Assembly: GCA_030536575.1 (NCBI GenBank)
Contig: JAUNPS010000020.1
Span: 1-64,000 of the forward strand
Length of the DNA: 64,000 nt
DNA from: Eubacteriales bacterium
GTDB taxonomy: Bacteria > Bacillota > Clostridia > Lachnospirales > Lachnospiraceae
Direction: 5' to 3'
Shown: piece after piece, positions 5,482 through 22,282 of the stretch
Numbering within the stretch: position 1 is the stretch's first letter
Layout: each line of letters begins with the position of its first letter
Position numbers and translations under genes: made by a program
The notes under the pieces: generated by a model
What the model was told of the DNA's origin: nothing
The model's database searches: none
What the model saw: the letters and a program-made list of their open reading frames with translations, nothing else

Positions 5482-6246
5482 ATGAGTATTCTGGAAGTGA
5501 ACGGACTTCGGAAGACCTATACCACCCGCCTGGGCGGAAATAAAGTCGAAGCTTTGAAAAAGGTGACCTTTTTCGTGGAAGAAGGGGAATATGTGGCCAT
5601 CATGGGCGAGTCCGGTTCCGGAAAAACCACCCTTTTAAACATTCTGGCAGCTCTTGACAAGCCCACGGGCGGCACAGTGAAACTGGACGGACGGGACCTT
5701 TCCAAGATCCGGGAGTCCGAGATCGCGGCCTTCCGGCGGGAAAATTTAGGGTTCGTCTTTCAGGATTTTAACCTGCTGGATACGTTTTCCCTGGAAGACA
5801 ATATTTATCTGCCGCTTGTGCTGGCCGGGAAATCCTATCAGGTCATGCACCAGAGCCTGGAACCCATTGCGGAGCAGCTTGGGATTACCGGGATTCTGAA
5901 AAAATATCCCTATGAGGTGTCCGGTGGGCAGAAACAGCGGGCGGCGGTAGCGCGGGCACTGATCACGGAGCCGAAGCTGATTTTGGCCGACGAACCCACA
6001 GGCGCCCTGGATTCGAAGTCTACGGACGAACTGCTCCGCCTTTTTAAAGCAATCAACCGCCAGGGGCAGACGATTTTGATGGTGACCCATTCCGTGAAAG
6101 CGGCAAGCCATGCGGGGCGGGTGCTGTTCATCAAGGACGGCGAGGTCTTCCACCAGCTTTACCGGGGAAATCAGACGGATGAGCAGCTCTATCAGAAGAT
6201 TTCGGATACGCTGACGCTTCTGGCGACGGGCGGTGACAGACGATGA
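5482..6246 (+). CDS. ABC transporter ATPase, BceA-type
   Basis: 254-residue nucleotide-binding subunit of the MacB/LolD-like peptide-resistance class. Walker A GESGSGKTT lies at about residues 42-50, the Q loop is VFQDFNLLD, the signature VSGGQKQR, Walker B LILADEPTGALD, and the switch histidine VTHS. ATG 5482 is chosen because AAGGAGG ends at 5474; the ATG at 5476 would be only one base away. It overlaps the permease by four bases (ATGA). It powers the BceB-type permease, which removes or frees lipid II-cycle targets from peptide antibiotics and signals to the kinase. Confidence 0.92.
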   Translation: MSILEVNGLRKTYTTRLGGNKVEALKKVTFFVEEGEYVAIMGESGSGKTTLLNILAALDKPTGGTVKLDGRDLSKIRESEIAAFRRENLGFVFQDFNLLDTFSLEDNIYLPLVLAGKSYQVMHQSLEPIAEQLGITGILKKYPYEVSGGQKQRAAVARALITEPKLILADEPTGALDSKSTDELLRLFKAINRQGQTILMVTHSVKAASHAGRVLFIKDGEVFHQLYRGNQTDEQLYQKISDTLTLLATGGDRR

Positions 6247-8267: not shown

Positions 8268-9041
8268 TCAGGCCGGCGGGTGCTCGTAGAGCCTTGCAAT
8301 GAATTCCTGGCGGTTGGTGACATGCATTTTCTTATACATGTTGGCAATGTGTTTGTAGGCGGTGGCCACGCTGATGCAGAGCCGCTCGCTGATGGAGGAA
8401 GGGGATGCGCCGGAGAGGAGGAGGCTGGCGATCTCCTTTTCCCGTTTGGTGAGGGAATATTCCCGGAACAGGAAATCGTCCTGGTTCAGGGCGGTGTTTT
8501 GGGCGGTAAAAAAGTTAATGAAAAGATTGTCTAAAAGCGGGCGCAGCCTGCGGATCAGCCGAAGCTCATCCTCGGAATAGGGGATGGGCTTTGTGCGGTC
8601 AAAGGAGAGGATGCAGCGGATGCAGTTGTGCTGGTCGGTCAGGCCCATGCCGAGGCAGTATTTGAGCTGCAGGGGGCGGACGTAGGTGGACTCGAAGAGG
8701 TCGTAGGCCTCGCAGGTGTCCTGGTCGGTCCAGTCGCAGACGTGGACTTTTTCGTTTTCGGACAGGTGGAGGGGTTCTTTTAAGGAGTAGCTGCTGACGG
8801 TGCAGCCGTCCAGGTAGTAGTCCAGAAAGGTCTGCCAGGTCTGCTTGTCGACGCCGTACAGGAGGGAGGAGCGGATCTTGCCGGAGGAGTCGAGGAAGAG
8901 GACGCGGGCCTGGTCGTAGGGGATTAAGTGGTGGAGTTCTTTGGCGATGGCGCCGCAGAAGTGGGTGGGGTCGTGTTCGTTTCCGCAGCGGAGAAGGAAT
9001 TGGTACACGCGTTCGAGCGTGGCGGAAGATTGATTTTGCAT
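8268..9041 (-). CDS. LuxR-type transcriptional regulator
   Basis: 257 residues. The C-terminal 65 residues are a LuxR/NarL helix-turn-helix (LTKREKEIASLLLSGAS, then VATAYKHIANMYKKMHV). The N-terminal 190 residues look like a GAF-type sensor, but no ligand motif is clear. The start at 9041 is preferred because GGAGGT lies seven bases upstream; a longer frame to 9092 lacks this. It lies downstream of the PucR-type gene on the same strand with a 70-base gap and is probably cotranscribed. The adjacent island is a plausible target. Confidence 0.8.
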   Translation of the reverse strand: MQNQSSATLERVYQFLLRCGNEHDPTHFCGAIAKELHHLIPYDQARVLFLDSSGKIRSSLLYGVDKQTWQTFLDYYLDGCTVSSYSLKEPLHLSENEKVHVCDWTDQDTCEAYDLFESTYVRPLQLKYCLGMGLTDQHNCIRCILSFDRTKPIPYSEDELRLIRRLRPLLDNLFINFFTAQNTALNQDDFLFREYSLTKREKEIASLLLSGASPSSISERLCISVATAYKHIANMYKKMHVTNRQEFIARLYEHPPA

Positions 9042-9111
9042 AGGCGTACCTCCATTTAGACCAACTGGTACATCAGGTTCCATTCGGGCCATATCGCGGA
9101 CCGTAGGAGTT

Positions 9112-10635
9112 TTACTGATCTGTGTCCAGTAAATGCATATAAATTCGAAGCAATAATCTGGTTTCTGCGGAATCGTAGTCTACGATCTCGCGGATTTTTT
9201 TTAATCTCGGAAGCAGAGAGCTGCGGTGGAGAAACATATCCTGGGCGGTTTCCGAGGCGTTGCATTCATGATCCAGATAAGACTTTAACGTATTCCAATA
9301 ATCCACGGAGCCTTTGTGCCGGCGGAGCTTTTCCAGCTCCGGGATCAGCAGATCCTCCGGATCGAAGGAACCGCAGCAGTTCTGCAGCATATAGTCCAGA
9401 AGATAATCCCGGAACGCATAAAACAGCCGTCCGGGATGCTTTGCTTTTCCGGTTTTGAGTGCACAGAGGGACTGCTGGTAGGCGGTGCGGAGCTTAAAAA
9501 TATCATGAAAGGGCAGGCTGCATCCTGCCTGAAAATTCATATCCTGCAGCATCGGCGTAAGCGTGGCAGAAAACGGTTCGGCGTCCCGGAAGTCGTCCGC
9601 CAGCGGAAGAATACAGACAAGATCCCCATCGTAAGAGAGGGCGGAGCATTCCGGCAGAAGCTGCTCCAGAGAGGAACAGAGGTATCCGGGCGGCAGCAGC
9701 TTATCGTGATTTGCGCTCTGAAGGGTGATACAGAGCCAATATTCGGGGAACGTCAAAGAATTCTGCGGGCCGGAAGCGATCTCCAGCGCCTGCATCAGCT
9801 CGCTCTTGCTTACCGGAAGGGATTCCAGAAGCTGCCGGAAAATCGACTTCAGCGTCACATAGTTTCTGCCGGGGCCTGCGGACTGCCGGACGAGGGCGGC
9901 GGTAATATATTCCGAAAACTTCTGAAACAGCAGGTAATCGCTTTTGCGGATGGGACGGCAGTCCTCCATGAGAGAACAGGTGCCGATGTATTCTTTATCC
10001 AGAAACAGGTTGACGCAGTAATTGTCCGTTCCGGCGTCCTTGTCTGTGAAGTGATAGGGCGCGTGGGAGGATGTCATTTTCCGGTAGTCGTTGTCAAACA
10101 AAACGCTTTTTCCGTGAGGAACATGGTCAAAGGAGCGGTTGATCTTACTCTCTTTTTTGCCGTTTACCGTGGTGGCTTCGCAGTAAGCCAGTATCCGGAG
10201 GCTGTAATCCGTAACGGCGATCCGGTTTTCAAAGATCGGAATGCTTACACGCAGCATTTCTTCGATATCGCAGCTGTGCTCTGCGATATCCTGCATTTTG
10301 GATTCCCACTGCAAAATGGTGTCATAAATCTTCTGCACTTCATTAAAAACATGAAGATAATCCGAAAAATTCCCGGCGAGGTAGAAAATTTCGGCGCAGC
10401 AGTTTCGGCGGATGCCGGAAGGGGCGGAGCCGAAGCAGATATAAAGGCAGGCAGTACGGAGGTCTTCAGGCAGCTCACTCCCGCGCAGGATATAAACGCC
10501 GCCCGGAACGGGAACGGTGCCTTTCATATAAAAAGCGGGGAGCAGAAGCGTCTGATCCTGGAGGGTTCTGCCGTATTCTGTGACCTGGAAGGATTCCGCC
10601 AGGATGTCTTTGATAATTTCCGAAGTAATATACAT
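9112..10635 (-). CDS. PucR/CdaR-type transcriptional regulator
   Basis: 507 residues. The C-terminal ~60 residues match the PucR helix-turn-helix (TLKSYLDHECNASETAQDMF, then a LHRSSLLPRLKKI recognition region). The upstream part resembles the GAF-like and GGDEF-derived sensory regions of the family. Relatives control purine, sugar-diacid or amino-acid catabolism and often lie beside their targets. It is transcribed away from the catabolic island at 10989 and has its own strong promoter (10691-10720). I infer that it regulates the island; the inducer is unknown. Confidence 0.85.
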   Translation of the reverse strand: MYITSEIIKDILAESFQVTEYGRTLQDQTLLLPAFYMKGTVPVPGGVYILRGSELPEDLRTACLYICFGSAPSGIRRNCCAEIFYLAGNFSDYLHVFNEVQKIYDTILQWESKMQDIAEHSCDIEEMLRVSIPIFENRIAVTDYSLRILAYCEATTVNGKKESKINRSFDHVPHGKSVLFDNDYRKMTSSHAPYHFTDKDAGTDNYCVNLFLDKEYIGTCSLMEDCRPIRKSDYLLFQKFSEYITAALVRQSAGPGRNYVTLKSIFRQLLESLPVSKSELMQALEIASGPQNSLTFPEYWLCITLQSANHDKLLPPGYLCSSLEQLLPECSALSYDGDLVCILPLADDFRDAEPFSATLTPMLQDMNFQAGCSLPFHDIFKLRTAYQQSLCALKTGKAKHPGRLFYAFRDYLLDYMLQNCCGSFDPEDLLIPELEKLRRHKGSVDYWNTLKSYLDHECNASETAQDMFLHRSSLLPRLKKIREIVDYDSAETRLLLRIYMHLLDTDQ

Positions 10636-10690
10636 AATGCCGTCTCTTTCTGCCCGCAGGCGGGAAATCTGGGATGTTTGTGCTGTCTTC

Positions 10691-10720
10691 AGTATAAATT
10701 TTATCGGATACGAATGTCAA
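10691..10720 (-). promoter_or_regulatory. Sigma-A promoter of the PucR-type regulator
   Basis: On the minus strand, TTGACA (10720-10715) is followed after 18 bases by TATACT (10696-10691). Both hexamers are near consensus and lie about 55 bases before the start codon at 10635. Confidence 0.7.
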
Positions 10721-10813
10721 TCTTTTTCTGATTTAAATAAAAAACAACGTTCTGAATAAAAACAAAAGAGAAAAATACGACAAATGACGAACAAAAAGAA
10801 AGAGTAAATATGG

Positions 10814-10893
10814 CATAATGCACAATTTAAATGTTTTTCGGATTTACCGGGGATTTTTTTCGGCAAAAGTCGAAAAAAACAGGGAAGATCCCT
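10814..10893 (+). promoter_or_regulatory. Divergent control region with two dyads upstream of the island
   Basis: The 353-base gap 10636-10988 contains no gene. Besides the minus-strand promoter it holds a possible plus-strand -10 CATAAT (10814-10819), a perfect 9-bp inverted repeat TTTTTTTCG (10854-10862) / CGAAAAAAA (10871-10879) with an 8-base spacer, and the small dyad AGGGA-AGA-TCCCT (10881-10893). Placed after the -10, the dyads could be operators for either neighbouring regulator or a leader hairpin. No clear -35 is seen for the plus strand, which suggests activator dependence. Confidence 0.45.
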
Positions 10894-10988
10894 ACAGGTT
10901 AGAGAATTTACGATTTGAGAAATGACTGATAAATTGAAGATACAGGATATTTTTGACAGGAAAAATAAAAAGCAGGAGGTATTTGTAT

Positions 10989-11981
10989 ATGGGAAACCTT
11001 TTTGAAGGAAGAGTGGCGGTCATCACCGGTTCCGGTCAGGGAATCGGCAAGGATCTTGCAAAGTATATGGCGTCAGAGGGCTGTAAGGTTGTCACGAACA
11101 ACCGCAAAAAAGGCTCCTCCATGCAGGCTCATGACGGCAAGATCGTGAAATTTACGCCGGAGGAGGAAGCAAACATTAAGAAGGTGATCGGCGACGCGGA
11201 TTCCGTAGCGGAGGAAATCATTGCGGCGGGCGGCGAGGCGATTCCCGTCTACGCGAATGTCTGTGTGAAAGAGGACTGTAAAAAGCTGATCGACGCGGCC
11301 GTGGAAAAATGGGGGCGCATTGATATCATCATCAACAATGCAGCGTCTACATGGACAGGAAACATCAAAGACATGACGCTGGAGGAGTGGGACGTCAACA
11401 TCCAGTCGAAACTGGACGCATCGTTTTATCTGATGCACTATGCGCTGCCTTATATGGTGAAGCAGCATTACGGAAGGATTTTGAACGTAGCGTCTTCCGC
11501 GTTTTACGGATTGGAAGGAATGGCGGCCTATTCGGCGGCATGCAGCGGCCTGTGGGCCTTTACCAAAGCGGCGGCGCAGGATCTGGCGAAGGACAACATC
11601 ACCGTAAACTGCTACACACCGCTCGCGGCAACCAGAAGCTGGTTTAATATGCTGGCGGAATACCGCATGGAGGGTATCCCAACGGAAGCGATCGAAGCCG
11701 GTTCCCCGGCGGGGATGAAGGTGACGCCCGAATACATGGTTCCGGCGATTGCCTACATGGCTTCGGAAGAATTTACAACGACCGGTATCATGATCAAGGT
11801 GGAGGCGGACGGTTCTCTGGCGATTTATTCAGAACCGCAGGAGCTGAACCCATGTCGGAAGGATTGTCTGAAGGAGGGGGCGTGGACGGTGGACGAGCTG
11901 CGCGACGTATTCCCGAATCAGCTTCTCAAGGACATTACCATCCGCAAGAGCACGCTGGCTGTCACGAAGTCGGAATATTAG
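10989..11981 (+). CDS. Short-chain dehydrogenase/reductase lacking the catalytic lysine
   Basis: 330 residues with a Rossmann fold. The cofactor motif TGSGQGIG is near residue 15 and NNAAS near 118. The catalytic Ser is in NVASS and the catalytic Tyr is Y181. The YxxxK lysine is missing: the sequence reads Y181-S-A-A-C185. A lysine (SKLDASF) appears where family members usually carry the Asn of the catalytic tetrad. There is an insertion of about 25 residues after beta-2. ATG 10989 follows AGGAGG; an upstream in-frame start at 10953 lacks a ribosome site. It is the first gene of the island operon. It may be a diverged oxidoreductase with altered proton relay or a non-redox SDR. Substrate unknown. 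Confidence 0.85.
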   Translation: MGNLFEGRVAVITGSGQGIGKDLAKYMASEGCKVVTNNRKKGSSMQAHDGKIVKFTPEEEANIKKVIGDADSVAEEIIAAGGEAIPVYANVCVKEDCKKLIDAAVEKWGRIDIIINNAASTWTGNIKDMTLEEWDVNIQSKLDASFYLMHYALPYMVKQHYGRILNVASSAFYGLEGMAAYSAACSGLWAFTKAAAQDLAKDNITVNCYTPLAATRSWFNMLAEYRMEGIPTEAIEAGSPAGMKVTPEYMVPAIAYMASEEFTTTGIMIKVEADGSLAIYSEPQELNPCRKDCLKEGAWTVDELRDVFPNQLLKDITIRKSTLAVTKSEY

Positions 11982-11990
11982 GAGGCAGCT

Positions 11991-12983
11991 ATGAGTAAAG
12001 TGATTCGGACTGTCCGGGGAGAGATTTCCCCGGAAAATATGGCGCTGCTGCGCTCCGGCACCGGGCTGTTTTCGGACGACTGTCACACGGCAGACGATGT
12101 CGAGTGGCTGACGAGAGAGTTATGTTATTTTAAGAACGCTGTCGGCGGCAATGCGGTTGTGGACGCGTCTCCCATCGGCATGCGCGGCAATGTGGAGCTG
12201 ATCCGTCAGGCATCCGAGGCGGCGGACGTCCATGTGGTGGTGGCGACCGGATTTTACTACGAGATGGGAAGGCAGGAGAACCTGCGCAGCCTCACCGAGC
12301 AGCAGGTCTATGACATCTGCAAAAGAGAAGTGGAAGAAGGGATTGACGATACCGGCATCTATCCGGGGTTCTTAAAATGCGGGATGAGCTCTGCAGGGCC
12401 CGGTTCTGAAATACCGGAATGTGAACAGGCAGCGCTGCGTGCACTGGCAAAGCTGGCGAAAGAGACGGGGCTTTCCCTGCATGTCCATACGGCTGTGCCG
12501 ATGACAGCCGAGCAGGTTCTTTATACGGCGGATGTCTGTCTGAAAGAAATCGGATTGTCTCCCGACCGGCTTTACATGATGCATCTGGATCAGTATCTGC
12601 GCGTGCCGCTGGACATTGACCAGTACATCAGAGACTTCAGCCAGACACGTACTGTGGATATCGAGCTTCCGTGCAGGCTGCTGGAGCGCGGCTGTACAAT
12701 TGGTTTTGATTCCTGGGATTCGCTGGTCTCTATACTTCCGGACAATTTTGACCGGCTGAAAGCACTCGTGGAGCTGCTCCGCAGGGGATACGCGGATCAG
12801 ATCGTACTGGGACACGACATCACAGATAAATCGCACAGTGCTTCCTGCGGCTACACCGGCTTTACCGGTTTTATGATGAATGGACTTTCGAAACTGTATG
12901 CGATGCCGGATCTGGTAAAGCCGGAGGACATTCACAAACTCGTATATGAAAACCCGGCAAGGCTGCTGGCGTTCGAAAAATGA
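11991..12983 (+). CDS. Phosphotriesterase-family protein with degenerate metal site
   Basis: 330-residue TIM-barrel protein of the phosphotriesterase/PTE-like lactonase family, which hydrolyses esters or lactones through a binuclear metal centre. The lysine that is carbamylated in the family (K129), the strand-5 histidine (H164 or H166), the strand-6 histidine (H198, MHLDQ) and the strand-8 Asp (D276) are all present. The strand-1 HxH motif, usually HEHL, is replaced by G23-T24-G25. At most a single metal ion could bind, or the chemistry differs. It starts ten bases after the dehydrogenase with AGGAGG and is clearly in the operon. Confidence 0.82.
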   Translation: MSKVIRTVRGEISPENMALLRSGTGLFSDDCHTADDVEWLTRELCYFKNAVGGNAVVDASPIGMRGNVELIRQASEAADVHVVVATGFYYEMGRQENLRSLTEQQVYDICKREVEEGIDDTGIYPGFLKCGMSSAGPGSEIPECEQAALRALAKLAKETGLSLHVHTAVPMTAEQVLYTADVCLKEIGLSPDRLYMMHLDQYLRVPLDIDQYIRDFSQTRTVDIELPCRLLERGCTIGFDSWDSLVSILPDNFDRLKALVELLRRGYADQIVLGHDITDKSHSASCGYTGFTGFMMNGLSKLYAMPDLVKPEDIHKLVYENPARLLAFEK

Positions 12984-13002
12984 AAAGAGGAGGAAATAGA
13001 AC

Positions 13003-14334
13003 ATGGCAAGGAAAGTAAAAGAAGCCACCAAATGCTATCCGTATAATGTATCGGATGTGAATCTGCGGGATGCGGACAGCAACATGCGGTTATACCGCGG
13101 CATGGGGACGCCCTGGGGAGCGATCAAAGGCTTTCAGGAGACTTACGACTTTACCAGCCGTCTCGGCGCGGCCTTCTGTGTGGCGACCATGCACACGATG
13201 CGGATCGTGATCCCCGACTATGACCGGCTGCAAACGCTGCTCTCGGACAACTGGGGACGCACGATGGATTATATCTGGAGCCCGGCTGCGGGACAGATCG
13301 AGCCGTTTGAAGACCGCTTCGATATCCCGCCGTTTCTGAAGAACGGGCAGATCCGCGCTGCGGTTTATGCGGATAAGGGCGACACGATGAACATGATCTC
13401 CGGAAAAATCTGGTATACGACAAACGACCGTTTTGAAAAGGAAATCCATCGCTGTGATTATGATATTGCCGGGCCGGAGGCCTGCGACCTTTCCCTGGGC
13501 GGCGGCTGCCATTTCTGCTACGGGCTGGCGGGCTGTCCCTTAAATGCCATGGACCCGGAGCGGATCGGAAACGGGGACGACTACTGCGTGGCGATCCAGG
13601 AGACAAAGCGGAAATACGGAAAGCATCCGAACACCAACGAGAACGATGAATTTGACGAAACGCACAGAGAATGGGCGGTTTACGGTCCGGCGGCAGCTGA
13701 GACGAGAAAAAAGCCATGGCCGAAGAAGCCGTATCCGGAATTTATTGACACCGGATATTTTGAGTCGCCGACAGGCGCCAGATGGACCGCCGGAGAGCTG
13801 TATCAGGACAACGTAAACGGCTTTGCGATCGCCTACGCTTACAATGCCATCGATCTGTACCGCAGCGTATTTTCAGCGGAAGAAAAGAAGCTGTGGGATC
13901 TGGTAACGCCGTCGCTGTTTGAGGCATGCGGAAAGTTTGAGTTCGTGGATTTTAACACCAGAAAAGCAACGAGAGACTGGATGAACGTTCCTGGAGACGT
14001 GGAGGACGGACGCGTGATGGGCGCATGGATTTCCCTGTGCTTCCAGTCAAGAAATGTAGATTGTACCTTTAAAAAGTTTGAAGAGGATGAAACCATCATT
14101 GAGGGCGACCTGATCCAGTGGGATATGCTCGGCATGTACCCGGAGCTGAACGGGCTGTATAAGCATATCTTTAACGGGAACGTAAAAACGCTGGTGGGCG
14201 CACAGTGGACCGTAGACATGGAAGAGGACTTTGAAAACAAGAAGATCCGTTACATCATCCACAAGGTTCCGATCGGCGCAAGAAAGCAGAAACCACATCT
14301 TGGCATCGACAATTTTGAGGACGCGCAGAACTAG
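13003..14334 (+). CDS. Uncharacterised ~440-residue protein X1, paired with GcvT-like protein
   Basis: 443 residues with no signal peptide or membrane segment; I do not recognise a named family. It is a paralogue of the protein at 15396: both share RGM..PW..IK.F.ETY.F near the N terminus, IWY.TND..EKEIH.C, the block DI.GPEACD.S.GG, a GD.YC segment before RKYGKHPN, and a C-terminal DW..VP..V.DGRV.G. The C..GPEAC...GD.YC arrangement recalls the cysteine-containing core of ATC-hydrolase and V4R ligand-binding domains, and the C-terminal half may be a second degenerate copy; this is inference. Extra cysteines (CHFCYGLAGC) could hold a metal. Each paralogue is followed by a GcvT-like gene, so the pairs probably act together. 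Confidence 0.75.
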   Translation: MARKVKEATKCYPYNVSDVNLRDADSNMRLYRGMGTPWGAIKGFQETYDFTSRLGAAFCVATMHTMRIVIPDYDRLQTLLSDNWGRTMDYIWSPAAGQIEPFEDRFDIPPFLKNGQIRAAVYADKGDTMNMISGKIWYTTNDRFEKEIHRCDYDIAGPEACDLSLGGGCHFCYGLAGCPLNAMDPERIGNGDDYCVAIQETKRKYGKHPNTNENDEFDETHREWAVYGPAAAETRKKPWPKKPYPEFIDTGYFESPTGARWTAGELYQDNVNGFAIAYAYNAIDLYRSVFSAEEKKLWDLVTPSLFEACGKFEFVDFNTRKATRDWMNVPGDVEDGRVMGAWISLCFQSRNVDCTFKKFEEDETIIEGDLIQWDMLGMYPELNGLYKHIFNGNVKTLVGAQWTVDMEEDFENKKIRYIIHKVPIGARKQKPHLGIDNFEDAQN

Positions 14335-14353
14335 GGAGAAGGGGGTACAGGAT

Positions 14354-15367
14354 ATGTTATTGATCAATACCGATGAGCGCTGCAGGGCGCAGCACGAAGC
14401 AGTCCGCAATACGGCAGGCTGGTATTATTTTACCCATCATCTGATCGAGGTCACGGGAACGGATGCATGCAGGCTCCTTGACCGGGTTTATGTTTCCAAC
14501 ATTGCAAAGCTGGCGCCAACCCGCGGACGTTACACTATGATGCTGACGGAGGACGGGATTCCGCAGGATGACTGCGTGATCTTCTGTCTGGAGGAAAACC
14601 GATACTGGATATCGAACCTTCATCCGCCAAGGACGCTGCGCGAGCTTGAAGAGCACAGTGAAGGGCTGGATGTGTCTTTCCGGAAGATCACAAAAGAAGT
14701 GGATATGTATGCGGTGCAGGGGCCGAACGCCTGCGCGATGGTGGAATCGCTGGCGGACAAAAACCCTTCCGCGCAAAAGCGTTTTCAGATCGTGGACAAC
14801 CGCATCGGGGATTTGGAGGTAAAGATCGCAAAGGGCGGCTATACAGGAGAAGCCGGGTATGAAATCTATATCAAACCGTCAGAGTGCGAAAAGCTGGAAA
14901 CAATCCTGGCGGAGGCAGCCCCGAAATTTGACGCTGTGAAGGTAGACGAGTTTGACGTTATGGCGTATACGCTGGCAACGGAAGCGGGACTGTACCTGGT
15001 GACGGACATCGACGAGGCCGATCCGTTTGTGAGCGGCCTGGAGTGGATGATCGACTGGTCGAAGGAAGATTTTCTCGGAAAAGCAGCCGTATCAAAGGCA
15101 AAAGAGGAGCCGCGCACGAAAGAGCTGATCGGATTTACCATCGACAAGCCGTTCGTAAAGGCGCACGGAGGGCCTTACGGCGCACAGATCGCGAAAAATG
15201 GAGAGGTGCTTGGTCACTGTACGAAATTTACGTATGGATTTACCGTGGGAAAATGGATCGGGTTCGCGCTGGTAAAAGCAGGGAAGGTAAAGACGGGCGA
15301 CCAGATTCTGGTGGACTATGAAGACGCAGTTGTGACAGAAAGACCGTTCTATAAAAAAACAAACTAA
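14354..15367 (+). CDS. GcvT-like tetrahydrofolate-binding protein 1
   Basis: 337 residues of the aminomethyltransferase fold. Hallmarks are RGRYTMMLTEDG near 60, QDDCVIF with the family's key Asp near 72, GYTGEAGYEIYI near 170, and a C-terminal beta barrel. Relatives include GcvT, DMSP demethylase DmdA and the aromatic O-demethylases LigM/DesA, all of which use tetrahydrofolate as methyl or methylene acceptor. No other glycine-cleavage genes are in the window, so a role in glycine cleavage is unlikely. ATG 14354 follows GAAGGGGG; upstream in-frame extension overlaps X1 and is not supported. Inferred role: folate-dependent methyl transfer with X1. Confidence 0.87.
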   Translation: MLLINTDERCRAQHEAVRNTAGWYYFTHHLIEVTGTDACRLLDRVYVSNIAKLAPTRGRYTMMLTEDGIPQDDCVIFCLEENRYWISNLHPPRTLRELEEHSEGLDVSFRKITKEVDMYAVQGPNACAMVESLADKNPSAQKRFQIVDNRIGDLEVKIAKGGYTGEAGYEIYIKPSECEKLETILAEAAPKFDAVKVDEFDVMAYTLATEAGLYLVTDIDEADPFVSGLEWMIDWSKEDFLGKAAVSKAKEEPRTKELIGFTIDKPFVKAHGGPYGAQIAKNGEVLGHCTKFTYGFTVGKWIGFALVKAGKVKTGDQILVDYEDAVVTERPFYKKTN

Positions 15368-15395
15368 AAGAGCTGTTCAAAGGAGGACACACAAA

Positions 15396-16697
15396 ATGAA
15401 AGAAGTAGAAAAAATGATACCGGAAAATATTTCGGATCTCGGAATGATCGATGAGGACAGTGGGCTTCGGCAGTTCAGAGGGATGATGAGTCCATGGGAT
15501 AAGATCAAATCTTTCAAGGAGACGTATCTTTTTCTGACGCGTCATGCAGGCCTGTATGGCGTGTGCTATATCAATGCACTGAAAATCATTGAGCCGGATT
15601 ACGAGAAAAGAACGAGCGCTATGTCAGAGTGCTGGGGACAGAGTATCAAGTACATGTGGAGCCCGGAGAGCGGACTGAATATGAAAGAGAATTTCAGGGA
15701 AAAACAGTCCATTCCGCCTTTTATTAAAGATGGAATATACTTTTCCGCCTGTTTTGCAGACCAGGGAGATGAGTTCATGGCGATGCCGGGCTATATCTGG
15801 TATGCGACAAATGATTATGTAGAGAAAGAAATCCATCACTGTCCGTTTGATATCATCGGACCGGAAGCCTGTGACGTATCGATTGGCGGCGCGCAGAATT
15901 TTACGCAGTGTGCCTGCGGAGTGCCAATGAAAAACTATGAATCCGAACGAATGGGCTGCGGCGATCCGTACTGTCATGTCATTTTTGATACGGAACGAAA
16001 ATACGGAAAGCATCCGAACGCAGACGGACATGACTGGGAAAAATGGGGGCCTGCACCCCAGGGAATGCGGGAAAAGGGCGCACCGAGAAAAGAGGAATGT
16101 GAATTCCTGACAACCGGCGAGTATATGTCGCCTTTGGGACAGCGCTGGACAGTGGGAGAAATGTATAAAGAGTGCGTAGGGTGGCCGCTGGCCTATTCTA
16201 CCAATGCGGTTCAGGCAATGCGTGTACTGGTAAAGCCGGAGGATATGGAGCGGGCATATCAGATCGTCGATGTGATTTTTGATACTGCCGGAAAATCGCT
16301 GTTCGGCGATACAAACCTCAGAAAAGAAGCAAGAGAGTGGATGGGAGTGCCGGAATCCGTAGATGACGGACGCGTGTTGGGCGGCTATATCAGTATGATC
16401 TATCAGGCACGCTGCCTGGACTGGCGTTTTGTGGAATTCTCAGAAGAGCGTACCGTGATCGAATGTGACCGTTTTGGCCTGGAAATGATGGGACAGCATC
16501 CGGAGTTTGTGAGAGCTTATGAGGCATATTTTAATGGGATGGCGAAGACGCTTGTAAATTGTCAGTGGGTCGTAAAAGAGGACAAAACCGCTCCGAAGGA
16601 TCGGGTACGATTTAACATTGAAAAAGGCTTGTACGGTTTCCGCCGCCAGAAACCGGGCTATCAGTTTGAGAAGGAGGGCGAAAAAAATGATCAGTAA
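15396..16697 (+). CDS. Uncharacterised ~430-residue protein X2, paralogue of X1
   Basis: 433 residues, the same architecture as the protein at 13003 and similar over nearly its full length. The conserved core HHCPFDIIGPEACDVSIGG and CGDPYCHVIFDTERKYG are present, but the CHFC cluster of X1 is replaced by QNFTQCACG, so the cysteine set partly differs. No membrane or export signal. It overlaps the following GcvT-like gene by 11 bases, which supports coupled translation and a physical partnership. The X-GcvT pair looks duplicated as a unit, with divergence suggesting two different substrates or two successive positions on one substrate. Confidence 0.75.
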   Translation: MKEVEKMIPENISDLGMIDEDSGLRQFRGMMSPWDKIKSFKETYLFLTRHAGLYGVCYINALKIIEPDYEKRTSAMSECWGQSIKYMWSPESGLNMKENFREKQSIPPFIKDGIYFSACFADQGDEFMAMPGYIWYATNDYVEKEIHHCPFDIIGPEACDVSIGGAQNFTQCACGVPMKNYESERMGCGDPYCHVIFDTERKYGKHPNADGHDWEKWGPAPQGMREKGAPRKEECEFLTTGEYMSPLGQRWTVGEMYKECVGWPLAYSTNAVQAMRVLVKPEDMERAYQIVDVIFDTAGKSLFGDTNLRKEAREWMGVPESVDDGRVLGGYISMIYQARCLDWRFVEFSEERTVIECDRFGLEMMGQHPEFVRAYEAYFNGMAKTLVNCQWVVKEDKTAPKDRVRFNIEKGLYGFRRQKPGYQFEKEGEKNDQ

Positions 16698-17685
16698 AGA
16701 CCAGAGCGTAAGAGAACAGCACCTTGCAGTCCGTAATTGTGGTGGATGGTATGATTTTACCCACCGCCTTTTGGAAATCGAAGGGGAGGATGTGACGGCA
16801 TTTCTTGATTGGATCTTTGCCGGTGCAGTTGCTCGTGTAAAGGTGGGCGGAGCGAAATATACCGTTATGTTAGATGCTTCTGCCAGGATTCGGGATGATG
16901 TGATCATCTTTCGTTTAGAGGAGCAGAAATACTGGATTTCTACGCTGTATATGCGGGATCTTATCAAATGGCTGGACGGGCATAAGGGAACTTATCGGGT
17001 TTCCTATCGAGATGTTACGAAGGACTGGCAGATGTATTCCGTTCAGGGGCCGAAAGCCAGAGAACTTGTCAATGCAGTGGCAGAGCAGCCGGTGGATGAG
17101 CTGAAATTTTTCCATATTGCGGACAATCAGATGGACGGAGCGCCGATAAAAGTAGCAAGAAGCGGTTATACAGGCGAAAAGGTCGGATACGAGATCTATG
17201 TATCTCCGGCAGACGAACAACGGCTGACCGAAAAACTGGAAGCAGAGGGAACAAAGCTGGGCCTGATCCATGTGACAGAAGTGGATGTGATGGCTATGAC
17301 GCTGGCCTGTGAAAAGGGCTTTGTGCTGATGATGGATCTCTGGAGGACGAATCCGCTGGAGGTTGGATTTGAAAAATCCATTGCCTGGGACACAGAGTTT
17401 ATCGGGAAGGCGGCCCTGGAGCGGATTCGCGAGGAAGGCCCGAAGAGGGAGCTGCTTGGAATTACCGTGGATGATCTCGATGCACGGATTTATGGAGGGC
17501 CTCATGGGGCAACGGTCATGCTGGACGGAAACGTAATCGGCAAAACGACGAAATATACGTTCAGTCCGATTTTGAATAAGAGCATTGGTTACGTTCTTGT
17601 GGACAAAGGACTTGTCAAAGTGGGAGATACGGTGGAGATTAACGGGGTGAAAGCCGTAATCTCGGAACGCAGATTCCTTCCGTAA
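16687..17685 (+). CDS. GcvT-like tetrahydrofolate-binding protein 2
   Basis: 332 residues, the same fold as the protein at 14354. The N-terminal segment REQHLAVRNCGGWYDFTHRL parallels that of copy 1. GGAKYTVMLDASARIRDDVIIF keeps the acidic residue region, and SGYTGEKVGYEIYV is the family motif with one extra residue. The C-terminal domain has YGGPHGATV and RFLP at the end. ATG 16687 lies inside the end of X2 and has GGAGGG upstream. A strong terminator follows at 17693. Folate-dependent methyl or one-carbon transfer is inferred from family membership; the substrate is unknown. Confidence 0.87.
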   Translation: MISKDQSVREQHLAVRNCGGWYDFTHRLLEIEGEDVTAFLDWIFAGAVARVKVGGAKYTVMLDASARIRDDVIIFRLEEQKYWISTLYMRDLIKWLDGHKGTYRVSYRDVTKDWQMYSVQGPKARELVNAVAEQPVDELKFFHIADNQMDGAPIKVARSGYTGEKVGYEIYVSPADEQRLTEKLEAEGTKLGLIHVTEVDVMAMTLACEKGFVLMMDLWRTNPLEVGFEKSIAWDTEFIGKAALERIREEGPKRELLGITVDDLDARIYGGPHGATVMLDGNVIGKTTKYTFSPILNKSIGYVLVDKGLVKVGDTVEINGVKAVISERRFLP

Positions 17686-17692
17686 GGATGTT

Positions 17693-17728
17693 ACGGCAGT
17701 TGGAGTAGACTTCAACTGCCGTTTTTTT
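17693..17728 (+). terminator. Intrinsic terminator of the island's first operon
   Basis: ACGGCAGTTG (17693-17702) pairs perfectly with CAACTGCCGT (17713-17722), with a ten-base loop and seven T. It separates the operon 10989-17685 from the two genes that follow. Confidence 0.92.
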
Positions 17729-17823
17729 GTGCAGCGCGAAAAATACATAAAATTGAGTATTTCGTTTTCCTGCGGAAAAAGATAAGATCATTTTACAAGA
17801 AACAATACCTGGAGGTGGTAAAA

Positions 17824-18768
17824 ATGGCGGAAAAGGATGTGCAGAGACGCATGGACCCGGAGGCGCTGGCGAAGCAGAGTGCGGAGCATGCGCCTTCGCT
17901 TGCGGAGCTGTTTTGCAGATGCTTGGAAGGGAAAGTGGCGCTGGTGACAGGCGGCGCTTCCGGCCTGGGCTATGCGGTCGTGAACCGGCTGTGCGAAGCA
18001 GGGGCGAAGGTGGTGATCGCCTCCCGCGGCGAGGAACGCGGAAAAAAGGCAGTAGCCGATTTCCGGGAAAAGGGTTATGAAGTGAGCTGGGTAAAGACGG
18101 ATGTGTCCGTGGTGGCGGACTGTTACCGGGCGGTGGATTTCGCAGTTTCGACTTATGGAAAGGTGGATATTCTGGTTTCCAACGCGGCGGGCTGGTCTTC
18201 CTGCTCTTATCTGGACGTGTCCGAGGAGCTGTATGACCGGATACTGGACGTGGATCTGAAAGGCTCCTATTTCATGGGACAGGCGGCCGCGCGGCACATG
18301 GTTGCGAACAAAATTAAGGGAAAGATCGTGTTCATTTCCTCCGCGGCGCACTTAGGAGAGGGCCAGTCGAATCTGGTGATGAACACCTATTATCAGGCCG
18401 CGAAAGCGGGCGTGACCGGACTGACCAGAGGGGCGGCCGAAGAGCTGAAGCAATACGGCATCAGCGTAAACTGCGTAGCGCCAGGCGGAATGCTCTCCGC
18501 AGGCGTCTTCACCCAGGGGACAGAGTATCCGGCCAAATATGGGGAAGCATATCAGGAAGCGCGCAAGAAACCCGCGCCGGAGACGCCCCTTGCAATGAAC
18601 CCGGATGAAGTGGGACGCGTGGTCTTCGCCCTGTGTACGCCCATGGCGGACTTTATGTGCGGCGAAGTGGTGAACGTAAACGGCGGCGCAATGCTGAAAT
18701 TCCAGACTATGCCGCTTAGCTATACGGTGGAGGGCTGCATCCCAGGCCCGCAGAAAGAATCCTGTTGA
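17824..18768 (+). CDS. Short-chain dehydrogenase/reductase, canonical active site
   Basis: 314 residues. The cofactor motif TGGASGLG is near residue 43, SNAAG near 120, the catalytic Ser in FISSAA, and an intact YYQAAK (YxxxK), followed by the N-x-x-x-PG segment (NCVAPGG). It has about 30 residues before the Rossmann core, longer than usual, and a C-terminal extension rich in Pro and Cys. ATG 17824 follows GGAGGT at a good distance; GTG 17815 would overlap that site. It begins a second transcription unit with the PanB-like gene, 22 bases downstream. Likely an NAD(P)-dependent alcohol/ketone oxidoreductase in the island's pathway. Confidence 0.87.
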   Translation: MAEKDVQRRMDPEALAKQSAEHAPSLAELFCRCLEGKVALVTGGASGLGYAVVNRLCEAGAKVVIASRGEERGKKAVADFREKGYEVSWVKTDVSVVADCYRAVDFAVSTYGKVDILVSNAAGWSSCSYLDVSEELYDRILDVDLKGSYFMGQAAARHMVANKIKGKIVFISSAAHLGEGQSNLVMNTYYQAAKAGVTGLTRGAAEELKQYGISVNCVAPGGMLSAGVFTQGTEYPAKYGEAYQEARKKPAPETPLAMNPDEVGRVVFALCTPMADFMCGEVVNVNGGAMLKFQTMPLSYTVEGCIPGPQKESC

Positions 18769-18790
18769 GAAAAGAAAGGAAGGTACGATT

Positions 18791-19678
18791 ATGGCAAAAG
18801 GAAAAGGTTCCGATATTGAAATGATGCCGCTGGCGCAGGGAAGAAAGACCATCTGGCATTTACAGAAAATGAAGGACGAGGGCAAATTGATTTCGATGGT
18901 GGGCGTTGCCTATCTGGATCCGCTTTTTACGATGCTGTGTGAAAAGGCAGGGGTGGATCTGGTGCGCTACACCTGTCCTGGAGAAAGCGTGGAAGACCGG
19001 GCAAGGCTGATGCCGATGTGGACGCGCCTGATCCGAAAAAGCGCCCCGAACATCTGTCTGAATGCGGTAATGCAGAGCCAGCAGTATGCGGATAAATATA
19101 CGGCCGTGAAGGAAGCGGCGATCCTGGTAGGCGACGGCGCGGATTCGGTGATGCCGATGGGCGTGACAAACGAAACCTGCCAGTACATGTCGGACAATCT
19201 GATTCCGGTGTTCGGCCATGTGGGATGCCTTTCCGGCTGGCAGACCGGCGCGTTTGGCGGTTACCGGCGGCAGGGCAAGACGGCGGAGGATGCCATGAAG
19301 GTTTTCCGCCAGGCCTATGAATATCAGGAGAGCGGGATGATCGGCATGACGACCGAGATGACCTCCAGACAGCTGACGGATCTGATCGCGAAGAAGCTGC
19401 GGATTCCGGTGATCCAGGTGGCGGCCGGAGGCGTGGCCGACGGTTCGGAGATGGTGATTTTCGACCTGCTGGGCTTTGTTCCGGGGGCTGCGCAGGCGAA
19501 GCATGGGAAATATTATGCGAATCTGTTTGACGATTCGATGAAAGCCTTCCTGGATTTCGACCGGGAAGTGAAGGAACAGGTTTATCCGGCTGAGGAGCAC
19601 GGATGGGGAATGGACGAGAACGAACTGGAAAAATTCCGCAACGAGCTGGATCAGAAGTACCCGGATATCAAAAAATAA
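18791..19678 (+). CDS. PanB-like protein lacking metal-binding aspartates
   Basis: 295 residues aligning along its whole length with ketopantoate hydroxymethyltransferase PanB, a TIM barrel that uses methylene-tetrahydrofolate. Retained are FGHVGCLS, FGGYRRQGKT, the catalytic-base Glu region (TTEMTSRQL), IPVIQVAAGG, VIFDLLGF and a PAEEHGW ending. Lost by my alignment are the Mg-binding Asp of VGDS (Cys62 here), the Asp of ADLPF (Val here), and the substrate-binding Lys and Glu of VKIEGG (Met and Met). It is therefore unlikely to be a working PanB. Its place beside two GcvT-like genes suggests a retro-aldol or one-carbon role in the same pathway (inference). Confidence 0.82.
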   Translation: MAKGKGSDIEMMPLAQGRKTIWHLQKMKDEGKLISMVGVAYLDPLFTMLCEKAGVDLVRYTCPGESVEDRARLMPMWTRLIRKSAPNICLNAVMQSQQYADKYTAVKEAAILVGDGADSVMPMGVTNETCQYMSDNLIPVFGHVGCLSGWQTGAFGGYRRQGKTAEDAMKVFRQAYEYQESGMIGMTTEMTSRQLTDLIAKKLRIPVIQVAAGGVADGSEMVIFDLLGFVPGAAQAKHGKYYANLFDDSMKAFLDFDREVKEQVYPAEEHGWGMDENELEKFRNELDQKYPDIKK

Positions 19679-19956: not shown

Positions 19957-20205
19957 ATGAAACTGAACGAGCAGATCGACCTCATTGATTTCTTCCGCCA
20001 GGTAAAAGCATGCCAGGGCGAGGTGCTGTTCCAGACCAGCGAAGGGGATACCTTAAATCTGGCCTCCACCCTTTCCCAATACCTGTTTACCTCGATAAGC
20101 GGAAACCAAAGCTATATCCGAAAAGGCGAAGTGCGCTGCCAGAATCCGGAAGATTACCAGCGCTTAAAAGCCTTCGGAAAGGAGGAACCAGCCGATGAGC
20201 AATGA
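19957..20205 (+). CDS. Small conserved Lachnospiraceae-type protein
   Basis: 82 residues resembling small proteins common in Lachnospiraceae, recognised by an N-terminal FF..V..C.G.V segment, a central EGD.LNL...LSQYL motif and a short acidic tail. Such proteins sometimes carry the label 'polyA polymerase', with no evidence of that activity. AAGGAGGAG lies at the right distance from ATG 19957. The last 11 bases overlap the start of the hydrolase gene, so the two are coupled. Function unknown; possibly a small regulatory or structural partner. Confidence 0.7.
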   Translation: MKLNEQIDLIDFFRQVKACQGEVLFQTSEGDTLNLASTLSQYLFTSISGNQSYIRKGEVRCQNPEDYQRLKAFGKEEPADEQ

Positions 20206-22282
20206 AAAAATCATGTATGACCCCGCCCAGGATGCGGATTTCCAGGACCCCTATGTGGACGCCGAAGAATGGCGGGAAAGAAGCCTGCCGGACGGCAGAA
20301 CCGTTTCCTTTTGCTATATCCACGGCGGCTTTGCGAAAAAAGGCGTAAAATTCCTGTTCTGCATGCCGGAAAAAGCGGCCTTCCGGGGACGGTTTTACCA
20401 ATATTTATCCCCGTTCCCAGGCCCGGATGAGGAACTGGCATCCCTGTCCCGAAAAGGCGAAGACGACAAGATCGCATTCTGCCTGGAACACGGGGCCTAT
20501 TACGTGGAGAGCAATATGGGCTCCAAAGCAATGTTCGGCCCCAAGCCGGAACCCCAGCTTGTCTGGAAATCCAGCGCGGCCGTGGCCGAATATTCCAGAA
20601 TCAAGGCCATGGAACTGTACGGATGCGGACGGCCTTACGGCTACGTCTACGGCGGCAGCGGCGGCGGCTATAAAACCATGGCCTGTATTGAAAACACCAG
20701 AGCCTGGGACGGAGCCGTCCCCTTCGTGATCGGCTCCCCGGTCTCCCTGCCAAATACCATCACCATGCATGTCCAGGGCCAGCGCTGCCTGCGGAAAGCC
20801 TTCGGAAAGATCGTGGACGCCCTGGACGTGGGCGGAAGCGGGAATCCCTATGAAGACCTGACCGAAGACGAAGCGTTCATGCTGCGGGAACTTACAAATA
20901 TGGGCTACCCGCCCATCACCTGGTTTCTGGAAGCGGAAGGAAAGATTGACGACGGCTCCCTTCCGGTGCTGCTTCCGGATGTAAAGGCTGCCGATCCGGC
21001 GTATTTCCGGGATTTCTGGGAAGTGCCGGGGTATCTGGGAGCCGACGAGACGAGCAGCGCGGTGCGGGACCGCTTACAGTTTCACGGAATTGTTAAGAGC
21101 GTCCACCTTCCTGGGGAACCGCTTCCAAAAGAGGAAACTGACAGCCGAAACGGCGTAGACGATGCCTGGAAAAAACTGCTGGCGGACGGAAACGGCGCAT
21201 GGATCGAGCTGGAGGAGCTTCCGGCGGGTGAAGATCTGTACCTGAAAGGGACGACGATCACCTGCGAAACGGGCGCGGCAGCCGGAAAGCAGCTTTTGCT
21301 GGGTGAAATGAAGCGAAATCCGGGAACACCCGGCGGCTATCTGACCATCGGCATGTGCTACGGCCTGGACGACCTTCCGGGTGTTCTGGGAAAAATCCAA
21401 AAAGGGGATCAGGTGTTCCTGGACAACTCCGATTACATTGCAGTACAGTCCTATTACCGCCATCAGGTTCCGGCGGACCTGGCATTCCACGCATGGGATC
21501 AGTTCCGGGATGCGGACGGGAAACCGACGCTCCCCCAGCGGGAAAAGGTAATGGGATACGGCTATAACGGAACCGGAACCATCCAGGACGGGAACATCCA
21601 GGGAAAAGTCATCGTAATTCAGGCATTGATGGACGAATCCACCTGCCCATGGTGCGGCGACTGGTATCGCAGGAAGGTGAAAGCGGCAAAGGGCAGCGAG
21701 GAAGATTTTCGGATCTACTATATGGATCACTGCATCCACGGGGATGAATCCGGCATTGAAAGCACGATGCTGGTCAACTATCAGGGCGCGTTAAAGCAGG
21801 CGCTTCTCGACCTGGGCGACTGGGTGGAGCATGGGAAACTGCCTCTGGAAACCTCTCATTATCAGGTGAACGGCGGCCAGATTTCCATGACCGGTTCCGC
21901 CGGGGAGCGAAAGGGAATCCAGCCCGTCCCGGTATTGAAAGCGAACGGGGAAACCTGCGTGCGGGTGCGCGTGGGGGAGCCGGTGGTCTTTACCGCGGAA
22001 GCGGAAGTGCCGGACAATGCAGGAGAGATCACGTTGATGGACTTCGCGTTCGGAGACCAGGAACCCCTTTCCGGAACAGAAACATTCCGAATAAAAGGAA
22101 CTTTTGAAACTTTTCAGAAAAATGGCCGAAACGGAGCCGTTTCCACCGTTACCCATACGTATGAACAGCTGGGCGTCTATTTCGCGGCGGTGAAAGTCCA
22201 GTCCCAGCGGACGGGTTGCGCTTCGGATGTTTATACGCAGGTCAAGAACCTGGCAAGGGCGCGGGTGATCGCAGAACCGTAA
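20195..22282 (+). CDS. Tannase/feruloyl-esterase-like alpha/beta hydrolase with PKD-like domain
   Basis: 695 residues with no signal peptide. The nucleophile elbow GGSGGG puts Ser155 next to KTMACIENTRAWDGAVPFVIGSP, which parallels the tannase motif in which the nucleophile is followed by the DG..AG.P strand. A likely acid is in VIQALMDEST and the catalytic His is H512 or H515 (MDHCIHGD). Residues about 585-690 form a PKD-like beta domain (TLMDFAFGDQ ... THTYEQLGVYFAAV), odd for a protein without an export signal. Family members cleave esters of phenolic acids. It may supply a methoxylated aromatic to the folate-linked island upstream, but that link is inference. Confidence 0.75.
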   Translation: MSNEKIMYDPAQDADFQDPYVDAEEWRERSLPDGRTVSFCYIHGGFAKKGVKFLFCMPEKAAFRGRFYQYLSPFPGPDEELASLSRKGEDDKIAFCLEHGAYYVESNMGSKAMFGPKPEPQLVWKSSAAVAEYSRIKAMELYGCGRPYGYVYGGSGGGYKTMACIENTRAWDGAVPFVIGSPVSLPNTITMHVQGQRCLRKAFGKIVDALDVGGSGNPYEDLTEDEAFMLRELTNMGYPPITWFLEAEGKIDDGSLPVLLPDVKAADPAYFRDFWEVPGYLGADETSSAVRDRLQFHGIVKSVHLPGEPLPKEETDSRNGVDDAWKKLLADGNGAWIELEELPAGEDLYLKGTTITCETGAAAGKQLLLGEMKRNPGTPGGYLTIGMCYGLDDLPGVLGKIQKGDQVFLDNSDYIAVQSYYRHQVPADLAFHAWDQFRDADGKPTLPQREKVMGYGYNGTGTIQDGNIQGKVIVIQALMDESTCPWCGDWYRRKVKAAKGSEEDFRIYYMDHCIHGDESGIESTMLVNYQGALKQALLDLGDWVEHGKLPLETSHYQVNGGQISMTGSAGERKGIQPVPVLKANGETCVRVRVGEPVVFTAEAEVPDNAGEITLMDFAFGDQEPLSGTETFRIKGTFETFQKNGRNGAVSTVTHTYEQLGVYFAAVKVQSQRTGCASDVYTQVKNLARARVIAEP

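Follow-up and report, generated by a model that had tools for sequence, protein, structure and literature searches.

A protein family paired with GcvT-like proteins in a Lachnospiraceae gene island and, in some relatives, linked to folate one-carbon genes

We analyzed a 64,000-nucleotide stretch of DNA (hereafter, the window; contig JAUNPS010000020.1 of assembly GCA_030536575.1, positions 1 to 64,000) from a Lachnospiraceae bacterium whose genome (4.81 Mb; 90.7% complete) carries the window on contig 23. Positions 10989 to 19678 are filled by eight closely packed plus-strand genes, including two tandem pairs that each consist of a member of a protein family lacking Pfam and NCBIfam matches, here called X, and a GcvT-like protein (i.e., X1-GcvT1 and X2-GcvT2). 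In related loci, X and GcvT genes are linked and have diverged in parallel, and in some of these relatives the pair is linked to the genes that lead from tetrahydrofolate (THF)-bound one-carbon units to formate. X-GcvT is very likely a folate-dependent one-carbon enzyme. The explanation that best accounts for the data as a whole, which has about an even chance of being correct, is that X and GcvT constitute a two-part THF-dependent catabolic enzyme releasing a one-carbon unit at the methylene level.

The two pairs follow each other on the plus strand of the window. X1 (13003 to 14334) is followed by GcvT1 (14354 to 15367), which matches Pfam GCV_T (E = 1e-38 for a version one codon longer at the start) and GCV_T_C, and X2 (15396 to 16697) by GcvT2 (16687 to 17685; GCV_T, E = 4.7e-44; GCV_T_C), the start of which overlaps the end of X2. 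The two X paralogues share 41% identity over 429 columns, and the two GcvTs share 40% over 331 columns. A single scan of a species-level genome collection (one genome per species) yielded 143 X relatives, of which the best 80 (loci L007 to L086) were analyzed together with L005 and L006, giving 82 loci (L012 and L005 are one contig). A same-strand GcvT gene adjoins X in 79 of the 81 X open reading frames (ORFs) called in L005 to L086. Of the other two, the contig of L058 stops about 100 bases past X, and in L067 the neighbor is a fragment of GcvT. Over 77 pairs, the pairwise distances of X and GcvT were strongly correlated (r = 0.942, a value to which shared ancestry adds; none of 2,000 permutations exceeded 0.287). 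The nearest relatives of X1 and of GcvT1 are those in L007 and L008 (for GcvT1, L039 is tied with L008 at 0.49), and the nearest relatives of both X2 and GcvT2 are in L010 and L009. L007 is the closest locus, with an X that is 91% identical to X1. In L010, from a Chloroflexi metagenome-assembled genome, X and GcvT are joined in a single 781-residue ORF (this fusion and the X ORF of L017 are outside the 81). The fusion junction is open in one frame and has stops in the other two; X2 is 65% identical to the X half, and GcvT2 is 60% identical to the GcvT half. This was the sole X-GcvT fusion encountered, and among 301 genomes sampled for the phylum to which L010 belongs, X was found in the L010 genome only. 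We infer that X and GcvT form a complex.

Genes of THF metabolism were sought by tblastn in the 82 loci. Twelve of the 80 scan loci have a formate-THF ligase (FTHFS) gene no farther than about 9 kb away (L011, L017, L021, L025, L040, L041, L052, L053, L070, L071, L081, and L085). FchA was detected in 10 loci and FolD in 9; a FolC-like ligase is encoded in 7 loci, and 4 have a formate transporter gene. FTHFS, FchA, and FolD occur jointly in nine loci, with one or two of them missing from the stretch covered in L011, L017, and L053; L021, L025, and L041 additionally encode a component of an ECF transporter along with the FolC-like ligase. The FolD, FchA, FTHFS, and formate transporter representatives are supported by both Pfam and NCBIfam, and FolC and the ECF component by wider families only (Mur ligase and ECF S component). 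If FTHFS were expected by chance at 1.2% of loci, which is a rough estimate, the binomial probability of 8 FTHFS loci among 80 (an earlier undercount, as tblastn gives 12) is 6e-6, and that of 5 among 70 lineages is 0.0016 at the same rate. An earlier note on this DNA, made from the sequence alone, had proposed a pathway stripping methyl or one-carbon groups from a substrate onto THF, and its folate link is borne out by these one-carbon genes beside related loci.

The X loci carry the THF-to-formate route minus MetF, which would be needed for the oxidation of a 5-methyl-THF product. Three tblastn queries (E ≤ 0.01) found no MetF in the 82 loci and detected it in all 6 control loci. A genome-level search with PF02219 covered 57 X genomes (sets of 15 and 49, with 7 in common) and did not find MetF in 10 of them (G534, G537, G544, G545, G553, G557, G558, G571, G572, and G589), the completeness of which is not given. 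All ten have FTHFS matches (fragments only in G534), and FTHFS was detected in 46 of 49 X genomes. Chance gaps are disfavored as the cause, because the absence of MetF repeats in two sets with look-alike record names, namely, L021/L025 (Erysipelotrichaceae) and L020/L031 with L029 (Mogibacterium). In the host genome, FTHFS is split over two contigs, and MetF lies elsewhere than in the island. Since no MetF gene was detected in the related loci or in several of the X genomes, release of the one-carbon unit at the methylene (formaldehyde) level is somewhat favored over release at the methyl level. Of the proposed pathway, the transfer to THF is retained, and a methyl group is the less likely unit.

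All 57 X-linked GcvTs in an alignment hand-picked from more than 80 sequences (fragments and near duplicates left out) have the DD motif (D72-D73 in GcvT1), the Asp of which is catalytic in GcvT, and Glu 166, 170, and 210 are likewise invariant. The motif is shared with the Thermotoga maritima and Bacillus subtilis GcvTs and reads ND in the one DmdA aligned. DmdA resembles the X-linked GcvTs in using the GcvT fold outside glycine cleavage and differs from them at this motif. The window GcvTs are like the glycine cleavage GcvT in fold, in the DD motif, and in the expected one-carbon transfer to THF. They differ from it in lying beside X, in the replacement of a folate-site Arg, in scoring below the cut-off of the GcvT equivalog TIGR00528 (138.9 and 140.9 bits versus 235.85), and in being the only two GcvT-family genes found in the 90.7% complete host genome. 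A role in glycine cleavage was rejected on the last two grounds.

Neither X1 nor X2 has a Pfam or NCBIfam match at E ≤ 1, and they are the sole X genes detected in the host genome. Across 61 X sequences hand-picked from 83 (fragments and near duplicates again left out), the invariant residues are R53, G126, D127, G134, E145, K146, E147, C151, C161, G189, G191, C195, G310, K311, P330, D335, and R337. The abundance of charged residues and Cys among these positions suggests that X is an enzyme with a metal site.

Several observations weigh against methylene-level release by a folate-dependent X-GcvT enzyme. MetF is present in 47 of the 57 X genomes (the host and 46 others), making methyl-level input possible in most of them, and GcvT2 reaches 121.7 bits on the DmdA model (GcvT1, 79.9 bits; both are below the cut-off of 410 bits). 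The DD motif is weakly diagnostic, since in the same alignments human dimethylglycine dehydrogenase, the product of which is methylene-THF, has AE and the Pyrococcus horikoshii-type 1v5v has DE. FTHFS linkage is limited to the 12 loci, leaving 68 of 80 with no FTHFS nearby. The position of Escherichia coli R223, aligned via B. subtilis GcvT, is occupied by Pro in 49, Ala in 7, and Ser in 1 of the 57 X-linked GcvTs; R223 of E. coli GcvT contacts THF according to PMC12560246. Because this position is never Arg, the folate site of the X-linked GcvTs is, judging by the alignment, altered relative to that of GcvT.

The MetF and DmdA observations, together with the three Cys residues (C151, C161, and C195) invariant in 61 of 61 X sequences and the membership of DmdA and LigM in the GcvT family, favor a corrinoid-free demethylase, which was the main idea of the earlier note. 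Here, X would bind a compound bearing a methoxy, N-methyl, or S-methyl group, perhaps using a Cys-held metal, and GcvT would form 5-methyl-THF as do DmdA and LigM. The product of DmdA is given as 5-methyl-THF in PMC5395565. We consider such a demethylase rather unlikely, given that MetF occurs in 0 of 82 X loci although FTHFS, FchA, and FolD recur there and that no MetF was seen in 10 of the 57 X genomes; the DD motif, in contrast to ND in DmdA, is a weak sign in the same direction. Furthermore, neither DmdA nor LigM is known to require a second protein as a partner. The aromatic O-demethylases LigM and DesA are like X-GcvT in being GcvT-type, catabolic, and linked to formate-THF ligase, but they are single proteins linked to metF, and the window proteins (38.5 to 66.5 bits) are far under their NCBIfam cut-offs (580 and 800 bits). 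In strain SYK-6, the genes for LigM, MetF, and formate-THF ligase carry consecutive locus tags, as listed in PMC12997858.

The altered folate site and the many loci with no FTHFS nearby would suit a reading in which X-GcvT is non-catalytic in one-carbon transfer and the GcvT fold has been turned to binding or a different reaction, for which YgfZ-type relatives are a precedent. The clustering with FTHFS, FchA, and FolD, the FolC-like ligase and ECF component in three loci, and the invariance of DD and of the three Glu residues argue against this reading, and it appears quite improbable. Also improbable, though slightly less so, is N-dealkylation of the sarcosine oxidase or dimethylglycine dehydrogenase type, in which an imine or iminium would be made elsewhere and captured on THF by GcvT, with X only holding the substrate. 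Both GcvTs have soxA as one of their better-scoring NCBIfam models (138.2 and 136.3 bits, against a cut-off of 1164), and a methylene-THF product would fit the linked THF genes; however, no flavoprotein is encoded among the eight genes of the island or in the core of short-chain dehydrogenase (SDR), X, GcvT, and PucR-type regulator genes that recurs around X.

A two-part THF-dependent enzyme with methylene-level release remains the preferred explanation. In the corresponding pathway, an SDR would oxidize an alcohol of an imported compound, and X would release a formaldehyde-level one-carbon unit, for example, by retro-aldol loss of a hydroxymethyl group beside the new ketone. GcvT would capture this unit as 5,10-methylene-THF, and FolD, FchA, and formate-THF ligase would convert it to formate and ATP. 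We infer a role for the SDR in the pathway; retro-aldol chemistry by X is a tentative suggestion, and it is a guess that the group lost is hydroxymethyl and that the substrate is aromatic or hydrophobic. As part of the same explanation, both window pairs, each of which has diverged relatives elsewhere, would act in one pathway under the PucR-type regulator. A bolder and doubtful extension is that X is the first member of a new family of enzymes and, with its dedicated GcvT, carries out folate-coupled C-C cleavage removing hydroxymethyl groups from plant aromatics or terpenoids in anaerobic guts, yielding formate and ATP without oxygen, corrinoid, or S-adenosylmethionine; PanB-fold companions with altered metal sites, present in some loci, would perform a further aldol-type step.

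Known one-carbon systems resemble this scheme in part. The trimethylamine N-oxide (TMAO) demethylase Tdm has a DUF1989 partner with a three-Cys metal site joined to GcvT and yields formaldehyde, according to PMC12560246. X-GcvT shares with Tdm the combination of GcvT and a partner, and X has its own conserved pattern with no similarity to the two DUF1989 sequences compared. The gamma-formaldehyde lyases LdpA and PcfL act on lignin dimers in pathways with SDR steps and one-carbon loss as formaldehyde; LdpA belongs to the NTF2 superfamily, PcfL is its homologue, and, unlike in X-GcvT, a THF partner is not mentioned in the available part of the source (PMC12997858). No described operon of the island's composition was found in the literature searched, in agreement with the earlier note, and the island's own genes include no corrinoid methyltransferase, the rest of the genome not having been searched for one.

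X connects a family without Pfam or NCBIfam match to the folate-based breakdown of one-carbon units in anaerobes of gut and rumen. If release is at the methylene level, the system would allow some compound from the diet or the environment to be converted anaerobically to formate and ATP, and its GcvT part would be easily mistaken for glycine cleavage. An FTHFS-FchA-FolD cassette without MetF also suggests a general way to separate methyl-level from methylene-level folate enzymes.

Searches for the fold of X gave one lead. V4R domains, which occur in phenol sensors such as PoxR and MopR, share a GCG..HC-type pattern with X at residues ~140 to 200, where PDB searches gave weak, nonsignificant matches (E = 0.42 and 0.16). 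By hhalign, V4R ranked second of 45 profiles (score, 23.4), and it is no more than a lead because a decoy profile ranked higher (23.9). The zinc ligands of MopR are common to X only in part, and Pfam V4R matched none of the 61 X members. DUF1989 was rejected as the identity of X (hhalign with two DUF1989 proteins, 12 columns, score 17.4; no Pfam match), as was an internal duplication, the halves of X scoring 17.8, third behind decoys at 19.1 and 18.5. Genomes G537 and G541 carry three X copies apiece.

Of the 80 scan loci, 62 have a PucR-type gene no more than 3.5 kb from X, and 62 have an SDR gene on the same strand no more than 1.6 kb away; both counts are lower bounds, as many loci end at contig ends. 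In the window, the PucR-type gene (9112 to 10635, minus strand; Pfam HTH_30, the PucR C-terminal domain, E = 1.9e-14) is divergent from the island and belongs with the island set. Beside it lies a LuxR-type regulator gene (8268 to 9092), and 5 of the 80 X loci contain genes of a cluster (cluster 17) that was identified by eye as LuxR-type. The complete eight-gene set, for which the earlier note had named a lack of conservation as a unit elsewhere as refuting its proposal, was not found outside the window (i.e., in L005 to L086 and the genomes searched); the core that recurs widely, in anaerobes of several phyla, is SDR, X, GcvT, and PucR, and the unit is reduced to SDR-X-GcvT under a PucR-type regulator. 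PanB-like genes, the co-occurrence of which with X and GcvT-like genes the earlier note had suggested checking, are present in 6 of the 80 loci.

X was found in 3 of 145 genomes in a search of relatives and in 3 of 391 genomes of the class, in each case the host and two others. Carriers among the best 80 loci, by record names, include Lachnospiraceae, Erysipelotrichaceae, Oscillospiraceae, Coriobacteria, Spirochaetales, Chloroflexi, and others; a plasmid search gave no match. Cultured carriers include Blautia parvula NBRC 113351 (L014) and Sporosalibacterium faouarense (L013). Because this distribution is sparse and scattered, the X system appears to be an accessory, horizontally spread pathway.

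The eight genes are arranged in the order SDR1, PTE-fold gene, X1, GcvT1, X2, GcvT2, SDR2, and PanB-like gene, in agreement with the earlier description of eight packed genes in two units. Pfam matches confirm the SDR, PTE-fold, and PanB-like assignments. The division into two transcription units (SDR1 to GcvT2 and SDR2 to PanB-like) is indicated by an intrinsic terminator-like hairpin on the plus strand between GcvT2 and SDR2 (17693 to 17722; 13 pairs followed by a T run), which has the highest stem-pair count among 14 terminator-like sites detected in the region (mean of 9.8 in shuffles of the region).

SDR1 (10989 to 11981; Pfam adh_short, E = 8.5e-40) has relatives in L007, L008, and L010 and also in L009, where the gene is cut by the contig end. 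Its best solved relative is a (3R)-hydroxyacyl-CoA dehydrogenase, and that of SDR2 (17824 to 18768; adh_short, E = 3.6e-46) is BbsD (7pcs; E = 2.4e-32), an enzyme of benzylsuccinate beta-oxidation. Both matches are at the generic SDR level and do not name a substrate. The nearest locus, L007, contains PucR, SDR1, X1, and GcvT1. After its X1-GcvT1 pair, L007 encodes a pair of VOC proteins together with an acyl-CoA dehydrogenase and subunits of ETF (8716 to 12725); the best model for the acyl-CoA dehydrogenase is acryloyl-CoA reductase, with a score below the cut-off.

The PTE-fold hydrolase (11991 to 12983, plus strand) passes the Pfam PTE cut-off (E = 1.3e-28) but is missing the N-terminal HxH segment, which reads H[ED]H in all four aligned PTE relatives, and is probably impaired. 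PTE genes occur in 2 of the 80 loci. In L007, a remnant at 5960 to 6049 corresponds to the last 30 residues only, with 83% identity. Given the lost segment in the window and the remnant in L007, the PTE-fold gene appears to be undergoing decay in the lineage.

The PanB-like protein (P0008; 18791 to 19678, plus strand; Pantoate_transf, E = 5.5e-42) scores 98.8 bits on the panB equivalog (cut-off, 207.55). We aligned it with 10 relatives and the ketopantoate hydroxymethyltransferase (KPHMT) of E. coli (1m3u), the metal ligands of which are D45, D84, and E114 (E. coli numbering). The D84 position is occupied by Val, Tyr, or Phe and the E114 position by Met, and the D45 position is alignment dependent because PG[DE] lies nearby in most members; Glu is kept at the E181 position in 11 of 11 proteins. 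Because two or all three of the KPHMT metal ligands are absent, a role of this protein as a methylene-THF enzyme of the canonical kind was rejected; the PanB-like proteins form a separate family of their own. A GroEL-type chaperonin gene is present in three of the six PanB-like loci (L039, L058, and L076; the L058 copy was checked with NCBIfam). Downstream of the island, the window encodes a 695-residue protein (20195 to 22282) whose only Pfam match is a borderline one to PKD.

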